DNA of 64,000 nucleotides from assembly GCF_004004565.1 (NCBI RefSeq), contig NZ_SACM01000001.1:1240001-1304000 (forward strand). Reading direction: 5' to 3'. Below are positions 12,297 to 22,447 of this stretch, piece by piece. This DNA comes from Inhella crocodyli (lineage in GTDB: Bacteria; Pseudomonadota; Gammaproteobacteria; Burkholderiales; Burkholderiaceae_C). Both the position numbers and the translations under genes were made by a program. Position 1 is the stretch's first letter. The number at the start of each line of letters is the position of its first letter. The notes under the pieces were generated by a model. That model was given only the letters and a program-made list of their open reading frames with translations, was not told the origin of the DNA and ran no database searches.

Positions 12297-12332
12297 CGAT
12301 CGTCTCCTCGTCCCCCCTCGGGGGCGATTTGG

Positions 12333-12362
12333 GCCCACCTGTTCAAGCAGGTGGGCTTTTTT
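12333..12362 (+). terminator. Rho-independent terminator of the phasin gene
   Basis: Perfect 9-bp stem (GCCCACCTG / CAGGTGGGC), loop TTCAAG, followed by six T residues. Confidence 0.9.
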
Positions 12363-12451: not shown

Positions 12452-13504
12452 ATGGGCCTGATGGATTTCATCAAGAAACAGTTCATCGACATCCTGCAGT
12501 GGACGGAGAGCGGCGACGGCACGCTGGCCTGGCGCTACCCGATGAAGGATTTCGAAATCCAGTACGGCGGTCAGCTCGTCGTGCGCGAGAGCCAGATGGC
12601 CGTCTTCGTGAACGAAGGCAAGGTGGCCGACGTCTTCGGCCCCGGCACGCACAAGCTCACGACGCAAACCCTGCCGGTGCTGACCTACCTGAAGAACTGG
12701 GACAAGCTCTTCGAGAGCCCGTTCAAGAGCGACGTTTACTTCTTCAGCACGCGCCAACAGATCGACCAGCGCTGGGGCACGGCGCAGCCGATCACCATCC
12801 GCGACAAGGACTTCGGCGCGGTGCGCCTGCGCGCTTTCGGCAACTACGCCTACCGCATCGTCGACCCGAAGAAGTTCCACACCGAAATCAGCGGCACGCG
12901 CGAGACCTACACCGTCACCGACCTCGACGGGCAGTTGCGCGGCCTGATGCTGCAGCACATCTCCGACGGCATCGCGCAGTCCGGCATCCCCTTCCTGGAC
13001 CTGGCCGCCAACCAGATCGAGTTCGCCAAGGCCATGGAGGCCGCGACGGGCCCGGCCTTCGAGGCCTTGGGCCTCAAGCTGGAAGCCGTGACGGTGCAGT
13101 CGGTGTCCCTGCCCGAGGAGCTGCAGAAGATCCTCGACCAGAAGATCGGCATGGGCATGATCGGCAACAACATGGGCCAGTTCATGCAGTACCAGACCGC
13201 CCAAGCCATCCCCAAGATGGCCGAAGGCGTGGCCAATGGCGGCGGGGGCGGCGTGATGGGCGACGCCATGGGCCTGGGCGCCGGTGTGGCCATGGGCCAG
13301 GTGCTGGCGCAGCAGATGCAAGCCAGTTTGGCCGGCGTGAACCCAGCGGTGCAAGCGGCCGCCGCGGCCGCTGCAGCGCCCGTGGCCGCCAAGGCCGAGG
13401 ACGTGATCGCCTTGATCGAGAAGCTCGGTGACTTGAAGGCCAAGGGCATCCTCAGCGACGAAGAGTTCGCCGCCAAAAAGGCGGAGCTGCTCGGGAAGCT
13501 GTAA
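12452..13504 (+). CDS. SPFH-domain protein with C-terminal SHOCT domain
   Basis: SPFH/band-7-like scaffold of 350 residues, similar to proteins annotated as 'virion core protein' or YdjI-like. Residues ~25-240 form the SPFH region, rich in beta strands and closing with VQSVSLPEELQKILDQKI. A Gly/Met-rich and Ala-rich linker follows (about 255-310). The end (about 315-350, ILSDEEFAAKKAELL) is a SHOCT oligomerisation helix pair. No membrane helix is evident, so membrane binding would be peripheral. The Shine-Dalgarno AGAGGA precedes the ATG. It is first in a co-directional group with DUF4178, DUF350 and aminopropyltransferase genes. A short stem-loop (12413-12428) lies in its leader. Function unknown; membrane-stress scaffolding is an inference. 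Confidence 0.85.
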   Translation: MGLMDFIKKQFIDILQWTESGDGTLAWRYPMKDFEIQYGGQLVVRESQMAVFVNEGKVADVFGPGTHKLTTQTLPVLTYLKNWDKLFESPFKSDVYFFSTRQQIDQRWGTAQPITIRDKDFGAVRLRAFGNYAYRIVDPKKFHTEISGTRETYTVTDLDGQLRGLMLQHISDGIAQSGIPFLDLAANQIEFAKAMEAATGPAFEALGLKLEAVTVQSVSLPEELQKILDQKIGMGMIGNNMGQFMQYQTAQAIPKMAEGVANGGGGGVMGDAMGLGAGVAMGQVLAQQMQASLAGVNPAVQAAAAAAAAPVAAKAEDVIALIEKLGDLKAKGILSDEEFAAKKAELLGKL

Positions 13505-13519
13505 GTCGTCGACCGCGCC

Positions 13520-15109
13520 TTGGCCGACGACCAAGCCCCTGCGCAACGCCGCTGGCGCGCCGCCTGTCCCAACTGCGGCGCGCCGGTCGAGTTTGCCTCG
13601 GCGCACAGTGCCAGCGCCGTTTGCAGCTTTTGCCGCAGCACCCTGCTGCGCGATGGCGATGCGCTGCTGCGCACCGGCGAGAGCGCCGAACTCTTTGCGG
13701 ACTACTCGCCGCTGCAAATCGGCACCCAGGGCACCTGGCAGAGCGAGCCCTTCACCGTCTTGGGTCGCGTTCAGCTGGCCTACGACGGAGGCCGGTGGAG
13801 CGAATGGCACGCCTACTTTGACAACAGCGGCAAGTCCGCCTGGTTGAGCGAGGACAACGGCCGCTTCGTGATGAGCTGGCCGCTGTCCCTGGCGCAGCCG
13901 CCCGCCCCGACCGCGCTCGTGCTCGGGGCCCAGCAGGTGGTCGACGGCGAGGGCTACCGCGTGGCCGCCCTCACCCCCGCCACCCTGCACGCGGCCGAGG
14001 GCGAACTGCCCCAGCCCCCGAAGCTGGGGCAGGCGGTCTTCGTGGCCGAGCTGCGCTCCAGCCGCGATTCGGTCGGCACCTTGGAGTACGTGGAAGGCGA
14101 AGCGCCGCGCTGGAGCGTGGGGCGGCCTGTGGAACTGGGCCAACTCAAGCTGGCCAACCTGCGGGAGGAGTCGGCGGCCGACCTCGGCAAAGGAGGGGCC
14201 GGGCGCAGCCTGGCCTGCCCGCACTGCGGTGCCCCCATCCAGCCGCAACTGAACCAGTCCCTGTCGGTCACCTGCGGCCAATGCCAGTCGGTGGTCGACC
14301 TCTCGGGCGGCCCCGGCGAGGCCCTGCGCCACCACCAGCAAGCCATCGGCATGGAGCCGCCCATCCCCTTGGGGCGCACCGGCAAGCTGTCGCTGCTCAA
14401 GGGCGGCGCGCGCGAGCCGTGGCAAGTGGTGGGCTTCCTGGAGCGCTGCAGCCGGGGCGACGACGAGCAGTACTTCTGGCGCGAGTACCTGCTCTACAAC
14501 CGCCAGCGCGGCTTCGCTTTTTTGGTCGACAGCGAGGAAGGCTGGAGCTTGGTCTCGGTGCTGACCGGCGCCCCGACCCCGGTGGGCGCGGGCGTGCAAT
14601 GGCAGGGCCAACAGTTCAACCTGCACGAGCGCTACCAGGCGGTGACGACCCACGTGCTCGGCGAGTTCTACTGGCGCGTCAAGCGCGACGAAGTCGGCGA
14701 TGTGGCCGACTACCGCCGTGGCGACCAGTTCCTGAGTTGCGAGCGCAGCGGCAACGAGATCACCTGGAGCCTGGGCCGCGCGATGGACGCCGCCGAGGTG
14801 GCCCAGGCCTTCGGGCTGAACCCGCAGCAGCAAAAGCAGATCCAGCGCGACGCCTCGCCGCTGAGCAGCGCGGGCGACACCCTGAAGGGCCTGCTCGTGT
14901 TCGCCCTCATCGCCATCGCCGTGGTGGTGCTGATGAAGGCCTGCAGCGACGAACCTTGCGACCGAACCAAGCAAACCTTCGGGGCGCAAAGCGCCGAGTA
15001 CCAATCCTGCCTGGCCAACCAGCGCCGCAGCGGGGGCTACTACGGTGGCTCTGGCAGCGGCAGTGGCGGCAGCTGGGGCGGCGGCTTCGGTGGCGGCGGC
15101 CACAAGTGA
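13520..15109 (+). CDS. Double zinc-ribbon, double DUF4178 membrane protein
   Basis: Protein of 529 residues with repeated architecture: zinc ribbon (CPNCGAP...CSFC), DUF4178 domain (about 65-135), a second zinc ribbon (CPHCGAP...CGQC, about 233-258), second DUF4178 (about 285-350). A single membrane helix (LLVFALIAIAVVVLMKA, about 458-474) and a Gly/Ser-rich tail ending GGGFGGGGHK follow. No ATG is available. The only sensible start is TTG at 13520, five codons after and in frame with the SPFH stop, with no clear Shine-Dalgarno. Translation may therefore depend on coupling to the SPFH gene. Molecular role unknown. Confidence 0.8.
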   Translation: MADDQAPAQRRWRAACPNCGAPVEFASAHSASAVCSFCRSTLLRDGDALLRTGESAELFADYSPLQIGTQGTWQSEPFTVLGRVQLAYDGGRWSEWHAYFDNSGKSAWLSEDNGRFVMSWPLSLAQPPAPTALVLGAQQVVDGEGYRVAALTPATLHAAEGELPQPPKLGQAVFVAELRSSRDSVGTLEYVEGEAPRWSVGRPVELGQLKLANLREESAADLGKGGAGRSLACPHCGAPIQPQLNQSLSVTCGQCQSVVDLSGGPGEALRHHQQAIGMEPPIPLGRTGKLSLLKGGAREPWQVVGFLERCSRGDDEQYFWREYLLYNRQRGFAFLVDSEEGWSLVSVLTGAPTPVGAGVQWQGQQFNLHERYQAVTTHVLGEFYWRVKRDEVGDVADYRRGDQFLSCERSGNEITWSLGRAMDAAEVAQAFGLNPQQQKQIQRDASPLSSAGDTLKGLLVFALIAIAVVVLMKACSDEPCDRTKQTFGAQSAEYQSCLANQRRSGGYYGGSGSGSGGSWGGGFGGGGHK

Positions 15110-15133
15110 ACGAACGAACCTAGGAGCACGACC

Positions 15134-15352
15134 ATGACCCTCGAATGGCTCACCCCCGCTGCCGTGGGCGGCACCCTGATGTACGCCCTGCTGGGCGTCG
15201 CGATCTTCTGGGTCAGCTTCATCGTGGTGGACAAGATCACCCCGTACAAGCTGTGGGAGGAGATCGTCGAACACCGCAACATGGCCTTGGCCATCGTGGT
15301 GGCGGCGATGTGCATCTCCATCGGCCTGATCGTCGCTGCCGCGATCCATTGA
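15134..15352 (+). CDS. DUF350 (YjfL-like) small inner-membrane protein
   Basis: 72-residue protein with two predicted membrane helices (about 12-33 and 50-71) separated by a short charged loop (DKITPYKLWEEIVEHRN). This is a single DUF350 unit; many relatives carry two. A TAGGAG Shine-Dalgarno precedes the ATG. It lies 24 bases after the DUF4178 gene and 123 bases before the aminopropyltransferase. DUF350 proteins recur with spermidine-synthase and SPFH/DUF4178-type genes, which supports a joint membrane role, but no activity is established. Confidence 0.85.
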   Translation: MTLEWLTPAAVGGTLMYALLGVAIFWVSFIVVDKITPYKLWEEIVEHRNMALAIVVAAMCISIGLIVAAAIH

Positions 15353-15394
15353 GCCCCCAGGCTTCGGCTCGGCCTGGACGGCGAGCCTGTGCCA

Positions 15395-15428
15395 CCCCCC
15401 GAGGGGGCTGCCGCCCGCTGGGGGCGGC
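15395..15428. repeat. Tandem GC stem-loops (possible dispersed intergenic repeat)
   Basis: CCCCC-GA-GGGGG (15396-15407) is followed directly by GCCGCCC / GGGCGGC arms (15410-15428). The pattern resembles intergenic repeats I associate with Comamonadaceae-type genomes. It lies between DUF350 and the aminopropyltransferase. There is no T-run, so it is not a standard terminator. Confidence 0.35.
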
Positions 15429-15475
15429 CCGGCGCGGGCGGCGTCCCGCATGGGGCCCATGCAAGCCTTGACACG

Positions 15476-17035
15476 ATGACCCCAAACCCGTCCGACCGCG
15501 TCAGCTGGGCCGAGGCCCTGCTGCTGCTCAGCGTCTTCCTCATCGCCGCCTGCGGCCTGGCCTACGAGCTGGCGGCCGGCGCGCTGGCCAGTTACCTGCT
15601 GGGCGACTCGGTGCTGCAGTTCAGCACGGTCATTGGCAGCTACCTGTTCGCGCTGGGCATCGGCTCCTTCCTGAGCCGGTTTGTCGAGCGCCAGTTGGTC
15701 GCCCAGTTCCTGGGCATCGAGCTGCTCGTGGCCGTGCTGGGCGGCCTGCTGCCCATGGCGCTGTTTGCCGCGCACAGCCTGCTGCCACCCGGCGCCGAGA
15801 CCGCGTTCCGCGTGCTGCTGTACGCCATGGTGCTGCTGGTGGGCACGCTGGTGGGACTGGAGATCCCGCTCATCCTGCGCATCCTCAAAACGCACGCCGG
15901 GGGCGAACGCGGTTCGCTGCGCGAGCTCGTCAGCCAGGTGCTGACCTTCGACTACCTCGGGGCCCTGCTGGTGGCCCTGGCCTTCCCCCTGCTGTTGGTG
16001 CCGCACCTGGGTCTGGTGCGAACCGGCCTGTTCTTCGGGCTGATGAACTGGGGCGTGGCGGTTTGGGCTTGGTGGATGTTCCGCGGCCAACTGCGCGCAC
16101 GCTCGTGGTTGGCCGCCGGCGGGGCCCTGGCCCTGGCCGTGCTGCTGTTGGCCTGGGCGGGGGCCGAGCGCCTGACCAGCTGGGCGGAGCAGCGCTTCTA
16201 CGGCGAACCCATGGTGCTGCAGCAAAGCAGCCCTTACCAGCGGGTCGTCGTCACCCATGGCCGCACCGGCGTCAAGCTCTACTTGAACGGCAACCTGCAG
16301 TTCCACGAGCGCGACGAGTACCGTTACCACGAGGCCTTGGTGCACCCGGCCATGGCCGCGCACGGCGCGCCCAAGCGCGTGCTGGTGCTGGGCGGCGGCG
16401 ACGGCATGGCCGTGCGCGAGATCCTCAAGTACCCGAGCGTGGAGCAGGTCACCCTGGTCGAGCTCGACAGCCAAATCACCGCCCTGTTCCGGCGCATGCC
16501 CTTGCTCACCCGGCTCAACGGCGACGCGCTGAACCACCCCAAGGTGCGCGTGGTCCACGCCGACGCCTACCAGTGGCTGGAAACGCAGCCGGGGCAGGGC
16601 TTCGACGTCGTCATCGCCGACTTTCCCGATCCCAGCAACCATGCGCTGGCCAAGCTCTACAGCACCAGCTTCTACCAACGCGTGATGGAGCACCTGAACG
16701 CGAGCGGCTACCTGGTGGTGCAAAGCACCTCGCCCCTGGTGGCGCGGCACAGCTTCTGGACGGTGGTCGACACCCTGGAGGCCGTGGGCTTGCGCACCGC
16801 CCCGTACCACGCCCACGTGCCCAGCTTTGGCGAATGGGGCTTCGTGCTGGCCGGCCAGCGACCTTGGCAGCCCCCCTCGCAACTGCCTGCGGGATTGCGC
16901 TTCCTGAACGCCACCGGCTTGCCCTTGATGCTGGACTTCCCGCCCGACATGGACCGCGTGCCCGGGGGCGTCAACCGCCTGAGCGACCCGGTGCTGGTCG
17001 AGCACTTCCAACGCGAATGGGGCGCGGTGCATTGA
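15476..17035 (+). CDS. Membrane-fused polyamine aminopropyltransferase (spermidine-synthase-like)
   Basis: 519-residue protein. The N-terminal ~230 residues contain about seven hydrophobic helices. The C-terminal half is a spermidine-synthase fold with YRYHEALVHP, the AdoMet-site motif VLVLGGGDGMAVREIL, the acidic LVELDS, and the aminopropyltransfer motif IADFPDPSN. It should transfer an aminopropyl group from decarboxylated AdoMet to an amine near the membrane. Cytosolic SpeE is about 280-310 residues and lacks the membrane part. The ATG at 15476 lacks a good Shine-Dalgarno; upstream in-frame sequence is GC-repeat-derived and unlikely to be coding. speD, which makes the donor, lies 2.2 kb away on the other strand. 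Confidence 0.88.
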   Translation: MTPNPSDRVSWAEALLLLSVFLIAACGLAYELAAGALASYLLGDSVLQFSTVIGSYLFALGIGSFLSRFVERQLVAQFLGIELLVAVLGGLLPMALFAAHSLLPPGAETAFRVLLYAMVLLVGTLVGLEIPLILRILKTHAGGERGSLRELVSQVLTFDYLGALLVALAFPLLLVPHLGLVRTGLFFGLMNWGVAVWAWWMFRGQLRARSWLAAGGALALAVLLLAWAGAERLTSWAEQRFYGEPMVLQQSSPYQRVVVTHGRTGVKLYLNGNLQFHERDEYRYHEALVHPAMAAHGAPKRVLVLGGGDGMAVREILKYPSVEQVTLVELDSQITALFRRMPLLTRLNGDALNHPKVRVVHADAYQWLETQPGQGFDVVIADFPDPSNHALAKLYSTSFYQRVMEHLNASGYLVVQSTSPLVARHSFWTVVDTLEAVGLRTAPYHAHVPSFGEWGFVLAGQRPWQPPSQLPAGLRFLNATGLPLMLDFPPDMDRVPGGVNRLSDPVLVEHFQREWGAVH

Positions 17036-17270
17036 ACCTAACAACGGCCGTTGACCGCTTGATTCCGCATGCAAGTCCTTGATCGCTCCCCCCTCGGCGC
17101 TCACGCCCAACTTGACCGTTGGGGTGAGCGCGCTGCACGACCGATTGCACCGCGCTGTGGCGCGCCGGCGGCCTTGCTCAGCCTCGCGGGCATGGGCCCG
17201 CAGCGTCTTCGCGCCTTGCTGGCGCACCGCATCACGGCGCACTCGGCCGTGTCCAACCGCCGTTTCTAGG
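17036..17270. other. Intergenic region without a recognised gene
   Basis: This stretch separates the aminopropyltransferase from the FAD enzyme. Short open frames here look random, and I found no promoter or terminator that I would defend. Confidence 0.4.
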
Positions 17271-18827
17271 TTGAAGCGCCGCCACGCCCTGGCCCTGCCA
17301 CTGCTGCCCCTGGCCGCCTGCCAGCGGCCCAGCCGTGGGCTGGACGTGGCCTGGCTCGGCCCCGACCCCGCTCGCGCCCACGCGCTGCGCGCTGCCGCGC
17401 CCAAGGGCAGCGCCCGGCAGCGCCGCGCCCAGGTGGTGGTGGTGGGCGCCGGCGTGGCCGGGCTCACGGCCGCCCGCCTGCTGCGGGCGCGGGGCGTGGA
17501 CGTGGCGCTGATCGAGTGGGACCTGCAGGCCGGCGGCAACAGCCAAGGCGGCCAGGTTCGCGGCCTGCCCTGCCCGCTAGGCGCGCACTACCTGCCCCAG
17601 CCCGGCACGGAGCTGCCCGAGCTGCAGGACTTGCTGGTCGAGCTCGGCGCGGCCCAGCGCGTGGCCGGCCGCTGGCAAGCCCACGAGGCGCTGCAGGTGC
17701 ATGCCCCGTCCGAGCGCCTGTACGACGGCCACGCCTGGCAGCCTGGGCTGCTGCCGCCGACCGAGGACGCGGCCGCCCTGGCCCAGCGCCGCCGCTTTGC
17801 GCTTCGCGTGCGCGAGGCCCAACGCCGCATCGGCTTTGGCCTGCCCACGCACCGCGCGCCGTGGACGCCCGCCCATGCGGCGCTCGACGCCGAGCCCTTC
17901 GACGCCTGGCTCCACCGGGAGGGCCTCGACGAGCCGGGCCTGCGCTGGTACCTGGACTACTGCTGCCGCGACGACTACGGCGCCGGCAGCGCGACCGTGT
18001 CGGCCTGGGCCGGCCTGCAGTACTTCGCCAGCCGCCACGGCTTCCACGCCCCGGGCGACGAGGACGATGACCCCCACGCCGCCGCACCCCCGGTGCTCAC
18101 CGCGCCCGACGGCAACGCTTGGCTGGTGCGCGGCCTGGCCCGCGAGCTGGGCGAGTCGCTTCATTTGCAGCGCTTGGCGGTGCAACTCGACGAGGAGCGA
18201 CACGGCGTACGCCTGCGCTGCATCGGGCCCGACGGCCTGGAAGAGTGGCGGGCGGCGCAGGCCATCGTCGCCACGCCCCTGTTCATCGCCCAACGCCTGC
18301 TACGCCAGCCCCCGGCAGCGCTCTCGGCGGTGGCGCTGCCACGGGCCCCATGGCTGGTGGCGAACCTGTGGCTCGACGGCCCCCTGGCCCCCCGGGTGGG
18401 CGCACCGGCCGCATGGGACAACGTGGTGCGCGACAGCCCCACCCTGGGCTACGTGAACGCGCAGCACCAAAGCCTGGACCCGCGTCCCGGGCCGCAGGTG
18501 CTGAGCCTGTACTGGGCCCTGCCCCAGGCCGACCGCCAACGCTTGCTGGACGCACCGGCCTCGGCCTGGGCCGATCGCGCGGTCGCGGCGCTGACCCCCA
18601 CGCACCCCGACCTCCTGCAACGCCTGCAGGCCGTGCGCTTGACCCGCTGGGGCCACGCCATGGCCGTGCCCGTGCCAGGCGTGCGCGCCCAGGTGGCCCA
18701 AGGGGCGCTGGCGGCCTTGCGCAGTGCACGCGGGCGGGTGCGTTTCGCGCACGCCGACCTGGCCGGCTACTCGGTGTTCGAAGAGGCCTTCTACGCCGGC
18801 CGGGCCGCGGCCGCCGGCCTGGCATGA
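17271..18827 (+). CDS. FAD-dependent oxidoreductase (amine-oxidase-like), probably exported lipoprotein
   Basis: 518-residue flavoprotein. The N terminus (KRRHALALPLLPLAAC) looks like a signal peptide with a twin arginine and a lipobox Cys. The FAD Rossmann motif VVVVGAGVAGLTAARLL follows near residue 55, then the GG-containing second FAD contact (QAGGNSQGG). The family resembles flavin-containing amine oxidases and phytoene-desaturase-like NAD(P)-binding proteins; I cannot see a decisive substrate motif. The start is uncertain: no ATG fits, and TTG at 17271 was chosen for the signal peptide. Position after the aminopropyltransferase suggests it oxidises the amine product, which is inference. 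The stop is one base from the convergent arsR stop. Confidence 0.75.
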   Translation: MKRRHALALPLLPLAACQRPSRGLDVAWLGPDPARAHALRAAAPKGSARQRRAQVVVVGAGVAGLTAARLLRARGVDVALIEWDLQAGGNSQGGQVRGLPCPLGAHYLPQPGTELPELQDLLVELGAAQRVAGRWQAHEALQVHAPSERLYDGHAWQPGLLPPTEDAAALAQRRRFALRVREAQRRIGFGLPTHRAPWTPAHAALDAEPFDAWLHREGLDEPGLRWYLDYCCRDDYGAGSATVSAWAGLQYFASRHGFHAPGDEDDDPHAAAPPVLTAPDGNAWLVRGLARELGESLHLQRLAVQLDEERHGVRLRCIGPDGLEEWRAAQAIVATPLFIAQRLLRQPPAALSAVALPRAPWLVANLWLDGPLAPRVGAPAAWDNVVRDSPTLGYVNAQHQSLDPRPGPQVLSLYWALPQADRQRLLDAPASAWADRAVAALTPTHPDLLQRLQAVRLTRWGHAMAVPVPGVRAQVAQGALAALRSARGRVRFAHADLAGYSVFEEAFYAGRAAAAGLA

Positions 18828-18828
18828 G

Positions 18829-19137
18829 TCAACCGAGGGTGCGCAACTCCTGGGCCCAGCGTTCGATCAACTCGATCGCCGGCTCGGCGGTCAGGAAGTG
18901 AAAGTTCTCCGTCCCCTGCTGCCGAACCTCGACCAAGCCGGCCTGCCGCAAGATCTTCAGGTGGTGCGAAATGGCCGGCCGCGACAGGGGCAAGCGCTCG
19001 GCCAGTTGCCCCACGTTCATTTCCTGGTGCTCGGTCAGGAGCAGCAAAATCTGCTGCCGAGGCGTCTCCGCCATCGCGAAGAACAGCGGCTTGCAATCGG
19101 CAAAGGTCTGGGCGAGCTGCTCAAGGGGTGCGGCCAT
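18829..19137 (-). CDS. ArsR/SmtB-family winged-helix repressor
   Basis: 102-residue transcription factor with a typical ArsR helix-turn-helix (MNVGQLAERLPLSRPAISHH then LKILRQAGLVEVRQQG) and beta wing. It lacks the metal-binding CxC in the recognition region, so it is unlikely to be an arsenic or cadmium sensor; the single Cys is near residue 15. A perfect 10-bp inverted repeat five bases upstream of the ATG is a likely autoregulatory site. It follows speD on the same strand and faces the FAD-enzyme gene, so it may regulate the polyamine locus. Confidence 0.9.
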   Translation of the reverse strand: MAAPLEQLAQTFADCKPLFFAMAETPRQQILLLLTEHQEMNVGQLAERLPLSRPAISHHLKILRQAGLVEVRQQGTENFHFLTAEPAIELIERWAQELRTLG

Positions 19138-19141
19138 TCGG

Positions 19142-19163
19142 TGCGTTCAAAGGTTTGAACGCA
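19142..19163. promoter_or_regulatory. Perfect 22-base palindrome, probable ArsR-family operator
   Basis: TGCGTTCAAA-GG-TTTGAACGCA: ten-base arms with a two-base centre, lying between the speD stop and the arsR start. It has no T-run on either strand, which argues against a terminator. Confidence 0.7.
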
Positions 19164-19205
19164 TTGTGACCCTCAGCTCCGCCGGGTGGGGGGTCTCTGT
19201 GGCCC

Positions 19206-19583
19206 TCAGGCCACCCCGCGGTGCAAGGCCTGCACGCGCGACTTCGCCGGTGCAAACGCCGCCACCAGACGCTCCATCAAGGCCTGGGCCTTGGCCGAGT
19301 TGTCTTGGCCGAGGTTGCAGACGTACACGTCCAAGGTCACCCCGCCCTGCTCGGGCCAGGTGTGCACGGCCACGTGGCTCTCGGCCAGCAACACCACGCC
19401 GGTGATGCCGGCCGGCTCGCCCGGCTTCGCCGGCTCGAAGGCGTGAAAGCGCTCGGCCACGGAGCAAAGGCCCACGGCGTGTACGGCGTCCACGCACAAG
19501 GCCCGCAAGGCGTCCACCTGGGTCATGGCCGCCGCGTGCGGATCGCAGCCACGCAGGTCGGCGCAAAGGTGCAGGCCTTGCAT
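19206..19583 (-). CDS. speD: S-adenosylmethionine decarboxylase proenzyme (prokaryotic class 1)
   Basis: Pyruvoyl enzyme that makes decarboxylated AdoMet, the aminopropyl donor for spermidine-type synthases. The 125-residue length fits the short SpeD/SpeH class. LLAESHVAVHTWPE near the middle carries the self-cleavage Glu-Ser that yields the pyruvoyl group, plus the conserved His; the downstream Cys in VYVCNLGQ is also conserved. It sits 14 bases after moaD in the alaT-hom-thrC-moeA-moaD operon, where Burkholderiales usually have moaE. Its functional partner is probably the membrane aminopropyltransferase 2.2 kb away. Confidence 0.93.
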   Translation of the reverse strand: MQGLHLCADLRGCDPHAAAMTQVDALRALCVDAVHAVGLCSVAERFHAFEPAKPGEPAGITGVVLLAESHVAVHTWPEQGGVTLDVYVCNLGQDNSAKAQALMERLVAAFAPAKSRVQALHRGVA

Positions 19584-19597
19584 GGGGGCGGCGCGCC

Positions 19598-19846
19598 TCA
19601 ACCGCCGGTCACGGGCGGGAAGAAGGCGACCTCGTCCCCGTCCGCGAGCAGCGCCGATTCCTCGGCCATCTGCTGGTTCAGCGCGCACCGCAGGAATTGC
19701 GAGCGGTCCAAGGCTTGGGCGTGCGCCCCGCCCTGGGCGATCAAGGCGTCGCGCAGTTGCCCCAGGCTTTGGCCGGGCACGAAAGGCCGCAACTCTTGCG
19801 GGCCGAGTTGCTCGCGCAAGCGGGCGAAGTACTTCAGGGTCAGCAC
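19598..19846 (-). CDS. moaD: Molybdopterin synthase sulfur-carrier subunit MoaD
   Basis: 82-residue ubiquitin-like sulfur carrier of molybdenum cofactor synthesis. It ends in the diagnostic Gly-Gly (PPVTGG), which is thiocarboxylated. The start is GTG at 19846, seven bases inside the 3' end of moeA. The protein LTLKYFARLREQLG is a standard N terminus. Its partner MoaE is not found in this window. Confidence 0.93.
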   Translation of the reverse strand: MLTLKYFARLREQLGPQELRPFVPGQSLGQLRDALIAQGGAHAQALDRSQFLRCALNQQMAEESALLADGDEVAFFPPVTGG

Positions 19847-21057
19847 GTCAGGTCAGAAAGCCACAGGGCCTCGAGCGTATCGCCCGGCTGCACCGTCTGC
19901 CCCGGCGCCAGCACGGCCAGCGCATCGGCGAAGGCCAGGCTGCTGAGCACGCCCGAGCCCTGGTTGGGGTAGAGGGCCAGCGTGCCGCCTTCGCTCAGGC
20001 GAACCCGCACGAACTCCTCGCGCTTGGGATCGGCCTTGGGCCAGGCAAAGGCCGCCGGCAAGCGCAAGCGCGCGGGCTCGGCTTGGGCCGCGCCCATGCG
20101 CGCCAGCAACAAGGGCCGGGCCAGCAGCAAGAAGGTGACGAAGCTCGAAACCGGGTTGCCCGGCAGGCCGACGAACAGGGCCTCGCTGCCATCGGCACGG
20201 CGCACCGCCCCGTGCGCGAAGGGCTTGCCCGGCTTGATGGCCACTTGCCACAGGTCCAAACGGCCCAAGGCCTGCACCGCGGGCTTGACGTGGTCTTCCT
20301 CGCCCACCGACACCCCACCGCTGGTGACGATGACATCGGCCTGGGCGGCGGCCCTTTGCAAAGCGTCCTGCGTCGCGTCCAGGCGGTCGGGCACCAGGCC
20401 CAGGTCTTGCACCTCCGCCCCGAGGCCTTCCAGCAGCGCGCGCAGGGTGAATCGGTTGCTGTTGTAAATCGCGCCCGGAGGCAAGGGCTCGCCCGGCATG
20501 ACCAACTCGTCGCCGGTGCTGAACAGTGCCACGCGCAAGCGGCGGCGCACGCTCAGGCGCGCCAAGCCCACCGAGGCCGCGAGCCCCAGCGCGGCCGCGT
20601 TGAGCCGCGTCCCGGCTGGCAGCACGGTGGCGCCGGCTTGGATGTCTTCGCCCCGGCGGCGGATGTGCTGGCCGGGGCGCACGTCGCCCGGTGCCTGCAC
20701 CCAGGACTGGCCGGCGTCGTCGGTGCGGACGTGGCAGTGCTCTTGCATCACCACGGCGTCGGCACCCGGGGGGATCGTGGCGCCGGTGAACACGCGCGCC
20801 GCCGTGCCATCGACCAGCGCCTCGGGCCAGTGCCCGGCCGGCACGCGCTGGCTCACGGGGAGTTCGCGGCCGACCTCGGCCGCGCGCAGCGCGTAGCCGT
20901 CCATGGCGGCGTTGTCGGCCGGTGGCACGTCCAGCGTGGACGCCACGTCGGCCGCCAGCACCCGGCCCAGGCACTGCGCCGTGGGCAGGGTCTCGACCTC
21001 GGCGACCGCCGTCACGCCGGCCAGCAAGCGCTGCAGCGCCTCAGCGCGCGTCAACAT
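19840..21057 (-). CDS. moeA: Molybdopterin molybdotransferase MoeA
   Basis: Inserts molybdate into adenylated molybdopterin. The 405-residue protein has the MoeA N domain (PPADNAAMDGYAL), RVFTGATIPPGADAVV, the molybdopterin-binding MoCF domain (VALFSTGDELV, IVTSGGVSVGEEDHV), the GLPGNPVSSFV loop and a C-terminal barrel. Start ATG 21057 is preferred because MLTRAEALQRLL is the usual N terminus; GTG at 21075 is an alternative. Either start overlaps the thrC 3' end. The operon continues into moaD. Confidence 0.94.
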   Translation of the reverse strand: MLTRAEALQRLLAGVTAVAEVETLPTAQCLGRVLAADVASTLDVPPADNAAMDGYALRAAEVGRELPVSQRVPAGHWPEALVDGTAARVFTGATIPPGADAVVMQEHCHVRTDDAGQSWVQAPGDVRPGQHIRRRGEDIQAGATVLPAGTRLNAAALGLAASVGLARLSVRRRLRVALFSTGDELVMPGEPLPPGAIYNSNRFTLRALLEGLGAEVQDLGLVPDRLDATQDALQRAAAQADVIVTSGGVSVGEEDHVKPAVQALGRLDLWQVAIKPGKPFAHGAVRRADGSEALFVGLPGNPVSSFVTFLLLARPLLLARMGAAQAEPARLRLPAAFAWPKADPKREEFVRVRLSEGGTLALYPNQGSGVLSSLAFADALAVLAPGQTVQPGDTLEALWLSDLTC

Positions 21058-22447
21058 GGGCGTCGATGAAGGCACGCACGGCCTGCACGTCGTTGTCGAT
21101 CACGGTCACGCGCTTGGGCAGGGCCTCGATGCCGTCCAGGCCGGCCGGGCGAGGCGGCTCCTGGCCCGTCGCCTCGCGCAAGGTCTCGGCGAACTTGGCC
21201 GGCAGCGCCGTCTCCAGCACGATCATGGGCACGCCGGCTTGCCGGCGCTCCAGCGCCACCTTCAAGCCGTCGGCCGTGTGCGGGTCGACCAGGCGCCCGT
21301 AGCGCTGCTGGCAGGTGCGAATCGTGGCCAGGCGATCGGCGTGGCTGCTGCGACCCGAGGCGAAGGCGTAGCGCCCCTCGACCGAGGCCCTCTCAGCCGC
21401 ACTCAGCTCAAACGAAGGGGACGTGAAGGCCGATTGAACCCGCGCGCCGTCGCGGCCGAACAGGTCGGCGATGAAGCGCTCGAAGTTGCTGGCCTTGCTG
21501 ATGTCCATGCTCGGGCTGCTGGTCGCGTGCGTTTGCGCCGCGCCGCGGGGCGCGTAGCGCCCGGTGCGGAAGAACTCGTCCAGCACATCGTTCTCGTTGG
21601 TGGCCACCACCAGCTGCGCGATCGGCAGGCCCATCTGCCGCGCCACGTGGCCGGCGCACACGTTGCCGAAGTTGCCACTGGGCACGGTGAAGCTCACGCG
21701 CTCGTCGTTGGACTTCGTTGCCGCGAAATAGCCCGCAAAGTAGTACACGACCTGGGCCAACAAGCGCGCCCAGTTGATGCTGTTGACCGTGCCGATGCGA
21801 CGGCTCTTCTTGAACCCCAAGTCGTTCGACACCGCCTTGACGATGTCCTGGCAGTCGTCGAACACGCCGCGCACCGCGAGGTTGTGGATGTTCGCGTCTT
21901 GCAGGCTGAACATCTGCGCCTGCTGGAAGGCGCTCATGCGGCCGTGCGGGCTGAGCATGAACACGCGCACACCGGCACGGCCGCGCATCGCGTACTCGGC
22001 GGCGCTGCCGGTGTCGCCGCTGGTCGCGCCCAGGATGTTGAGTGCTTCGCCGCGGCGACCCAGCTCGTACTCGAACAAGGCGCCCAGCAACTGCATGGCC
22101 ATGTCCTTGAAGGCCAGCGTGGGCCCGTTGGACAGCTCTTGCAGGTGCAACCCCGGCTCCAGGGTGTGCAGCGGGGTGATCTCGGGCCGGCCGCCGAAGA
22201 CCTCGGCGCGGTAGGTCTGGGCCGTCAAGCGGCGCAGGTCCTCGGCCGGGATGTCGTCGATGTAGAGCGACAGGATTTCGAACGCCAACTCGGCGTAGCT
22301 CAAGGTCCGCCAGCGCGCCAAGGTGGCCGCATCGATCTGCGGGTAGTGCGTGGGCAGGTAGAGGCCACCGTCGTCGGCCAGGCCTTCGAGCAAGATGTCG
22401 CAGAAGCGCTTTTGTGGGCCGCCGCCGCGGGTGGAAACGTACTTCAT
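21041..22447 (-). CDS. thrC: Threonine synthase
   Basis: PLP enzyme converting O-phosphohomoserine to threonine. The 468-residue length and N terminus MKYVSTRGGGPQKRFCDIL fit the long (yeast/enterobacterial-like) class. The PLP Lys is in LAFKDMAMQ and phosphate contacts are in GATSGDTGSAA. The ATG overlaps the hom stop (TGATG), placing it in the alaT-hom-thrC threonine operon. Confidence 0.97.
   Translation of the reverse strand: MKYVSTRGGGPQKRFCDILLEGLADDGGLYLPTHYPQIDAATLARWRTLSYAELAFEILSLYIDDIPAEDLRRLTAQTYRAEVFGGRPEITPLHTLEPGLHLQELSNGPTLAFKDMAMQLLGALFEYELGRRGEALNILGATSGDTGSAAEYAMRGRAGVRVFMLSPHGRMSAFQQAQMFSLQDANIHNLAVRGVFDDCQDIVKAVSNDLGFKKSRRIGTVNSINWARLLAQVVYYFAGYFAATKSNDERVSFTVPSGNFGNVCAGHVARQMGLPIAQLVVATNENDVLDEFFRTGRYAPRGAAQTHATSSPSMDISKASNFERFIADLFGRDGARVQSAFTSPSFELSAAERASVEGRYAFASGRSSHADRLATIRTCQQRYGRLVDPHTADGLKVALERRQAGVPMIVLETALPAKFAETLREATGQEPPRPAGLDGIEALPKRVTVIDNDVQAVRAFIDAHVDAR

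Follow-up and report, generated by a model that had tools for sequence, protein, structure and literature searches.

A 64,000-nucleotide (nt) stretch of the Inhella crocodyli genome (RefSeq assembly GCF_004004565.1, contig NZ_SACM01000001.1, positions 1,240,001 to 1,304,000; here the window, numbered from its first letter) carries five codirectional genes and a facing speD (12452 to 19583) that we consider moderately probable to form an envelope aminopropylation module, in which an outward-facing transferase would act on an envelope acceptor and oxidation would take place outside the cytoplasm. The set comprises a membrane aminopropyltransferase (APT) fusion (15476 to 17035, + strand), a flavin amine-oxidase-type enzyme, here called the FAD (flavin adenine dinucleotide) enzyme (17271 to 18827, +), and, upstream of both, three genes: a 350-amino-acid (aa) SPFH/Band_7_1 protein with a C-terminal SHOCT domain (12452 to 13504, +; Band_7_1, 253 bits; SHOCT, 34.4 bits), a 529-aa double DUF4178 protein with one C-terminal hydrophobic helix (13520 to 15109, +; 121.4 bits, two stretches), and a 72-aa DUF350 (YjfL family) protein with two predicted membrane helices (15134 to 15352, +; 57.1 bits). 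The sixth gene, speD (19206 to 19583, −), encodes a class 1b S-adenosylmethionine (AdoMet) decarboxylase proenzyme. An original prediction, made from the letters of the window, had described seven genes here, the five above facing speD and an arsR, and family scans found all of them.

Linkage was assessed in 150 genomes of the order, where the full-length fusion relatives were at least 48% identical over nearly the whole protein; a distant match in G067 (residues 19 to 474, 26% identity, within a 1,158-aa frame) was excluded (G, L, and f numbers are our handles for genomes, loci, and families). The full-length fusion, DUF4178, and the FAD enzyme were each found in 24/150 genomes, and the three genome sets were identical. 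By printed family labels, the sole control for relatedness applied to these presence sets, the 24 genomes fall into 11 families (f1, f3, f4, f5, f8, f14, f15, f21, f22, f33, and f35), 7 of which (f1, f3, f4, f8, f15, f21, and f35) also contain genomes without all three. DUF350, Band_7_1, and SpeD were likewise present in all 24 fusion genomes, their totals being 36/150 for DUF350, 54/150 at an E value of 0.001 or 38/150 over the cut-off for Band_7_1, and 52/150 for SpeD.

Gene order recurred in two layouts within the order: that of the window (SPFH-DUF4178-DUF350-APT-FAD) and one in which FAD-APT diverges from a longer form of DUF350 followed by SPFH, DUF4178, and SpeD. SPFH lay within the 20-kb stretch of APT in 17 of the 24 fusion genomes and the FAD gene beside APT in 21; in G111 the parts were scattered along some 43 kb of a single contig, and the FAD gene was on a different contig from APT in G032 and G077. 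A scan of named genomes returned at least 589 stretches encoding a relative, of which the best 80, mostly Burkholderiales by title, were kept; of the 60 among these that span at least 17 kb, all 60 had APT, 59 had FAD, 55 each had DUF350 and DUF4178, 48 had SPFH, and 23 had SpeD. Plasmid records of Novosphingobium, where SpeD is annotated directly after FAD, and of Gemmatirosa (Gemmatimonadota) likewise carry the whole set with the FAD gene, and a Burkholderia stagnalis plasmid record holds the whole set with DUF350 undetected by the profile of the window's form. In a sample of the phylum, 43/388 genomes had a fusion match at an E value of 1e-60. The neighborhood on which the original prediction depended is thus conserved in order-level, named, and distant loci, and because the presence sets are identical in 150 genomes and gene order is conserved, these genes are, on comparative grounds, a real module whose products are predicted to act together. 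No further conserved partner gene recurred in these loci except the divergent longer DUF350 form (13 loci), other clusters being limited to 4 loci or fewer.

One part of the module travels less far than the rest. In 20 phylum-level loci, chosen from the 43 matched genomes, the FAD enzyme was found in only 3 (L171, L172, and L187; some contigs are short), which counts against the full scheme; in the other 17, APT either stood alone or was accompanied by one or more of DUF350, DUF4178, SPFH, and SpeD. Oxidation would therefore not be essential to the core, and by gene content the FAD enzyme is a stable part of one branch rather than of every branch. DUF4178 is split into two adjacent frames at L171 to L173, L175, L179, L181 to L182, L190 to L191, and L193. 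On an Alteromonas mediterranea plasmid (L194), the order is APT, speD, a hypothetical gene, a toxic anion resistance protein gene, DUF4178, a hypothetical gene, and DUF350, with no adjacent SPFH or FAD genes.

The proposal that SpeD feeds a membrane-associated aminopropyl system is supported by the distribution of its candidate partners: 24 of the 52 SpeD genomes encode the fusion, and neither the fusion nor a strong soluble spermidine synthase (SpdSyn; 130 bits or more) occurs in any of the 98 order-level genomes lacking SpeD. The strong soluble enzyme is absent from 21 of the 24 fusion genomes and present in G093, G105, and G133. It also occurs in 27 of the 28 SpeD genomes that lack the fusion; in the remaining one, which has neither partner, the SpeD match contains an internal stop and the genome is 78% complete. 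In 21 of 24 fusion genomes, the fusion is thus the only strong predicted partner of SpeD, with weaker PF01564 paralogues persisting in many genomes. The sole other PF01564 protein of the genome studied here (L002, 38 bits) was considered as the true partner of SpeD and rejected, as it reads GGGS in place of GGGDG and has no DxxDP (by eye); the original prediction's assumption that no other cytosolic spermidine synthase competes for this speD therefore stood. PF01564 matches of less than 70 bits were common in genomes without SpeD, among the matches listed. In G093 and G133, of the same family, a single open frame holds both the strong soluble SpdSyn and the one SpeD of the genome, which suggests SpeD-SpeE fusion enzymes in these close relatives; the two matches lie in frames of 448 and 451 aa (L068, 2699 to 3991, and L089), and same-length frames were seen in several further genomes of the order. 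SpdSyn-like matches of about 40 to 67 bits were also observed within 950- to 1,160-aa frames (e.g., G103, G143, G022, and G083), apparently much larger proteins.

The APT protein joins a seven-helix membrane domain (residues ~11 to 242) to a complete aminopropyltransferase domain (~236 to 516; Spermine_synth, 126.8 bits). It passes the NCBIfam equivalog for fused membrane polyamine aminopropyltransferases (NF002956, PRK03612; 655.8 against a cut-off of 472 bits, residues 11 to 517) and falls short of the speE equivalog TIGR00417 (144.4 against 249.55 bits); its score with the MFS_SpdSyn model NF037959, which bears on a possible MFS fold of the membrane domain, is 50.2 against 40 bits. Its AlphaFold model has a mean predicted local distance difference test score (pLDDT) of 88.2; structure-search matches fell mainly over residues 236 to 498, the soluble domain filling the list of PDB relatives, and the domain superposes on the Thermus enzyme 1uir (1uir_B) with a Z score of 35.4 and a root mean square deviation of 2.1 over 275 aligned residues. 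All 24 fusions keep Q255, Y284, H285, GGGD (306 to 309), D363, D382, and D385, residues that we take, from their roles in solved enzymes, to hold decarboxylated AdoMet (dcAdoMet) and perform catalysis. The fusion thus resembles soluble SpeE enzymes (1uir, 6qmm, and human 2o06) in its complete fold and its donor and catalytic residues, and differs from them in the seven-helix domain, in its few cysteines, in a C-terminal segment that is common to the fusions and absent from the soluble enzymes, and in its gate loop, where the tyrosine of all 20 soluble enzymes compared (20 of the 30 genomes with a strong soluble SpdSyn) is a phenylalanine (F451) in 24/24 fusions. Because the donor and catalytic residues are intact while the gate tyrosine is replaced and the C-terminal segment is added, the sequences fit an enzyme whose donor site has been kept and whose acceptor side has changed. 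The soluble enzymes L065 and L068 were taken out of the APT set, and L068 also out of the SpeD profile; A1 omits 5 of the 24 APT proteins and A2 omits 4 of the 24 FAD proteins. The SpeD of the window passes TIGR03330 (85.7 against 75.65 bits), and its ESH and HTWPE motifs and its cysteine align with the Ser/His/Cys catalytic residues of 2iii and 1tlu; by family membership and these kept residues, cytoplasmic SpeD would make dcAdoMet.

The orientation of the fusion was read in 129 homologues (24 order-level fusions, 80 named loci, 20 phylum-level loci, and 5 plasmid records). The AlphaFold model places seven helices ahead of the catalytic domain (residues 11 to 42, 45 to 69, 74 to 102, 108 to 140, 148 to 178, 180 to 201, and 209 to 242). 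In 122 homologues, lysine plus arginine averaged 1.35 before helix 1. Loops 2-3, 4-5, and 6-7 averaged 1.86, 3.94, and 2.44 of these residues, and loops 1-2, 3-4, and 5-6 averaged 0.01, 0.04, and 0.11; the flanking segment that follows helix 7 held 2.01, versus 4.07 aspartate plus glutamate. With the model's seven helices, all 129 homologues favored a cytoplasmic N terminus and an external C terminus (mean, 9.60 versus 1.93), and when helices were placed by hydropathy only, the domain came out outside in 113, 129, 95, and 93 of 129 for six, seven, eight, and nine helices. Choosing the helix number by largest charge bias among segmentations that were hydrophobic enough gave seven helices with the domain outside in 97/129 and another number with the domain outside in 4, and the window protein itself placed it outside with seven helices (9 versus 3) and with eight (4 versus 7). 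A similar charge count, with helix number given, placement by hydropathy, and the search region given for four, was correct for 9/9 Escherichia coli controls (LacY, MscS, ArgO, LapC, EptA, AdiC, ProP, ProW, and BasS; two with external N termini), judged against their accepted topologies. The catalytic domain is also poor in cysteine, with none in 111/129 fusions (79/80 named loci, 21/25 distant, and 11/24 in the order sample) versus 0/20 soluble enzymes; over 272 shared columns, the mean was 0.54 in fusions (zero in 11/24) and 2.95 in soluble enzymes (zero in 0/20). By the positive-inside rule, the N terminus would lie in the cytoplasm and the catalytic domain beyond the membrane, and the transferase domain likely faces the periplasm.

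Several results weigh against this orientation and in favor of the same system with a cytoplasmic APT domain, in which an inner-leaflet lipid or membrane protein would be aminopropylated and the product flipped out to the FAD enzyme. Imposing five helices put the domain inside in 81/129 homologues (outside in 31, with 17 ties), and the choice by charge bias put it inside in 28/129, 23 of them with five helices. The hydropathy sum alone favored seven helices for 70 of the 129 homologues, eight for 47, and nine for 12, and with six helices the window protein scored 8 versus 5 for the domain inside. The 129 sequences are not independent, 80 being at least 59% identical to the window protein (best segment), and 13/24 order-level fusions have at least one cysteine in the domain. 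SpeD, like the solved aminopropyltransferases, is a cytosolic enzyme, we know of neither an extracytoplasmic use of dcAdoMet nor a precedent for its export, and a cytoplasmic domain would make export unnecessary. Against that arrangement stand the charge distribution, contrary to it in every homologue at seven helices and in most at six, eight, and nine, together with the acidic flank after helix 7 and the depletion of cysteine; we regard it as a serious but doubtful alternative.

For the periplasmic arrangement, we lean only slightly toward one complete scheme, in which dcAdoMet is exported by the helix bundle or DUF350, envelope amines are modified by the periplasmic APT domain, and the FAD enzyme acts as an eraser or in a second step. 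The dcAdoMet made in the cytoplasm would pass outward most simply via the seven-helix domain of the APT protein, perhaps aided by DUF350; within that domain, E31, E129, D159, Y160, and N191 are identical in 129/129 homologues, D44 in 126, and E82 in 123, so that invariant or near-invariant acidic residues would be available in both halves of the bundle (E31 and D44; E82, E129, and D159). The acceptor of the aminopropyl group would then be an envelope amine and not cytosolic putrescine, the likeliest candidates being an aminophospholipid such as phosphatidylethanolamine, an amine of a lipoprotein or of peptidoglycan, or an imported amine. The DUF4178 protein has a conserved Gly-rich tail with HK as its last residues, which was examined as a possible aminopropyl acceptor and set aside, since only the window's protein and those of L033 and L034 end so among 24. 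On the same face, the Tat (twin-arginine translocation)-exported FAD enzyme would oxidize the aminopropylated product or a free polyamine, as turnover or as second processing. The SPFH-SHOCT protein, a putative scaffold at the cytoplasmic membrane surface, may together with DUF4178 and DUF350 serve as membrane scaffold and sensor, replacing the PspA/CesT of related operons, as the exchange of genes between them suggests.

The export-type N terminus that had been claimed for the FAD enzyme is well conserved. The best choice of start is TTG 17271, from which the protein begins MKRRHALALPLLPLAAC, with a twin arginine, a hydrophobic stretch, and a lipobox-like cysteine. In 20 order-level FAD proteins, conservation reaches 90% or more at R3, R4, and C17, with the twin arginine in 19/20 and twin arginine plus lipobox in 18/20. 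N termini could be analyzed in 50 of the 80 named loci (of the rest, 4 lacked a FAD match and 26 did not fit the motif): a strict twin-arginine pattern with a broader lipobox pattern found the twin arginine before a hydrophobic stretch in 43/50 and the lipobox as well in 41/50, and a lenient pattern gave 46/50 and 36/50. TatC is encoded in the genome (232.4 bits). These signals support Tat export and, for most of the proteins, a predicted lipid anchor; at L200, a Burkholderia cenocepacia plasmid record, the twin arginine is kept and the lipobox cysteine is absent, and the lipid anchor is therefore not universal.

What the FAD enzyme oxidizes is less securely assigned. It matches PF01593 (69 against a cut-off of 19.8 bits), and its model (pLDDT, 82.4) has monoamine and putrescine oxidases as top structural neighbors (Z scores of 30.2 to 29.2; 8p84, 30.2). 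It thus resembles the flavin amine oxidases (putrescine oxidase 2yg3 and the monoamine oxidases) in fold, at Z scores of about 29 to 30, and in its FAD-binding motif, and differs in sequence (16 to 23% identity over the best eight structural rows); likeness to the spermidine dehydrogenase SpdH (7d9f) is weak, at 35 bits. An exported enzyme unrelated to amines, for example an isoprenoid- or carotenoid-type desaturase linked to the module by operon membership only, would fit some of the evidence, and the following points count in its favor and against an amine substrate. The predicted amine-type substrate class comes from the fold, and protoporphyrinogen oxidase (27.8) and phytoene desaturase (26.8) lie just 2 to 4 Z units lower. 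Its best NCBIfam match is HpnE, a hydroxysqualene dehydroxylase (40.7 against 283.05 bits, far under the cut-off), and its PDB sequence profile gave weak matches to many flavin oxidases, led jointly by a protoporphyrinogen oxidase and 2b9w, a fatty acid isomerase labeled putative aminooxidase, with SpdH among the next matches in short collinear pieces. On the other side, the CrtD carotenoid desaturase equivalog was not reached (30.6 against 549.7 bits), amine oxidases lead the structural ranking, and of 20 other genomes in which APT and FAD are side by side, 19 have the two genes overlapping or almost touching. A non-amine enzyme is unlikely, and the original prediction, which depended on the enzyme not grouping with a carotenoid or unrelated pathway, agrees with the model's closest neighbors.

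Ordinary synthesis of spermidine or a related polyamine by a membrane-tethered SpeE, with the FAD enzyme as a polyamine oxidase for catabolism, is slightly harder still to credit. The name of the family that the fusion joins (polyamine aminopropyltransferase) and its intact donor and catalytic residues speak for such a role, and an OKR-type decarboxylase encoded in the genome could supply a diamine. The shortfall against TIGR00417, the Phe for Tyr exchange at the gate in 24/24 fusions, and the unfailing company of DUF4178 and the FAD enzyme across the order-level genomes speak against it, as do the missing spermidine and the failed speE complementation that Li et al. 2019 reportedly observed. 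A chance neighborhood of unrelated genes, to which the opposite strand of speD and arsR and the position of speD after moeA might point, is hardly credible given the identical presence sets and the order conserved in named and distant loci, and survives for arsR only: the ArsR/SmtB-type regulator gene (18829 to 19137, −; family scan), which had been proposed as a member, is a neighbor with no match at an E value of 1e-5 in 80 named loci.

In this strain, the junction between the APT and FAD genes holds an element resembling a miniature inverted-repeat transposable element (MITE), of 244 bp (17032 to 17275, no strand assigned), with 22-nt inverted ends that lie 200 nt apart, are 82% complementary, and carry TTGAA at both ends. 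The APT-FAD coding gap is 235 nt in the window versus −22 to +35 nt in 19 of the 20 other genomes with adjoining genes; in the 20th (L055), a gap of −244 comes from a wrongly placed start, and the pair was left out of the coupled count. Removing the body and one repeat makes the stop of APT and the start of FAD overlap in TTGA. The element thus splits this overlap, both frames remain open, and translational coupling of the two genes is presumably lost in this strain. No second copy occurs in the window, and partial relatives (73 to 78% identity over about 63%) were found in two plasmid records, one of Polaromonas and one of Caballeronia.

Elsewhere at the locus, in a genome of 3.76 Mb, speD is convergent to the FAD gene and sits directly after a short frame and moeA on the minus strand (19583 to 21075), so that it adjoins the five-gene operon without belonging to it; the short frame appears MoaD-like (by eye), and among the 28 named loci whose flank contains speD, 9 also have moeA next to it. 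The interval between DUF350 and APT (15353 to 15475) is GC-rich and, by eye, contains palindromic CCCCCCGAGGGGG-like sequence. A terminator-like site (12331 to 12358, +) lies between an upstream phasin gene and the cluster, in a scan that gave 3 such sites versus 4.3 expected in shuffles. Of the zinc ribbons ascribed to the DUF4178 protein, two CPxCG zinc-ribbon-like motifs were seen by eye, and the corresponding Pfam matches stayed under their cut-offs.

The association of these genes has been published as a prediction. Ravi et al. 2024 (PMC11237479) describes PspA-linked operons with a seven-transmembrane (7TM)-spermidine synthase fusion, DUF350, and DUF4178, together with a PspA-free variant that combines band-7/SHOCT, with a 2TM segment between the two, DUF350, AdoMet decarboxylase, and polyamine oxidase, and proposes that polyamines or aminopropylation are monitored in membrane dynamics. 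The gene families of the present locus and the proposed connection of aminopropylation with membrane dynamics are the same as in that text, and by gene families (Band-7 with SHOCT, DUF350, AdoMet decarboxylase, and a polyamine-oxidase-type enzyme) the locus fits the PspA-free variant. A partnership with PspA was rejected for this genome, which has no PF04012 match; such matches occur in 9/150 order genomes. The main text of PMC11237479 never places the transferase domain in the periplasm, a word that occurs in it 0 times. Within the literature searched, most subscription journals being outside its coverage, neither experimental work on the cluster nor any claim that the transferase is periplasmic was found. 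The earlier view that this is not a characterized pathway therefore held for its biochemistry within that literature and failed for the gene association, which was already in print; new here are the topology reading and the strict linkage of the FAD enzyme. Literature searches on the polyamine content of these genera gave nothing usable, R. pickettii excepted, for which putrescine and 2-hydroxyputrescine are described.

Two further systems invite comparison. Li et al., in Biochem J in 2019, reportedly described an MFS-SpdSyn fusion occurring with class 1b AdoMet decarboxylase and DUF350; spermidine is said to have been absent and an E. coli speE deletion not to have been complemented, and an acceptor other than putrescine was reportedly argued. 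The present system differs from it in adding DUF4178, SPFH-SHOCT, and a flavin enzyme with a Tat-type export signal, and in having its orientation argued from sequence. MprF-like lipid-charging enzymes are membrane proteins that add a cationic group to the envelope; the comparison extends to how the systems would work, with no homology shown or expected and with a different donor chemistry.

The family is common in environmental Burkholderiales. Because 21 of the 24 fusion genomes lack a strong soluble synthase and all 24 have SpeD, the role of SpeD without a recognizable soluble spermidine synthase becomes a testable question. A periplasmic face, if true, would mean transfer of an AdoMet-derived group outside the cytoplasm, for which a dcAdoMet carrier must exist, to our knowledge the first such exporter. 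It would also give bacteria a new route to positive charge on the envelope, one relevant to membrane stress.

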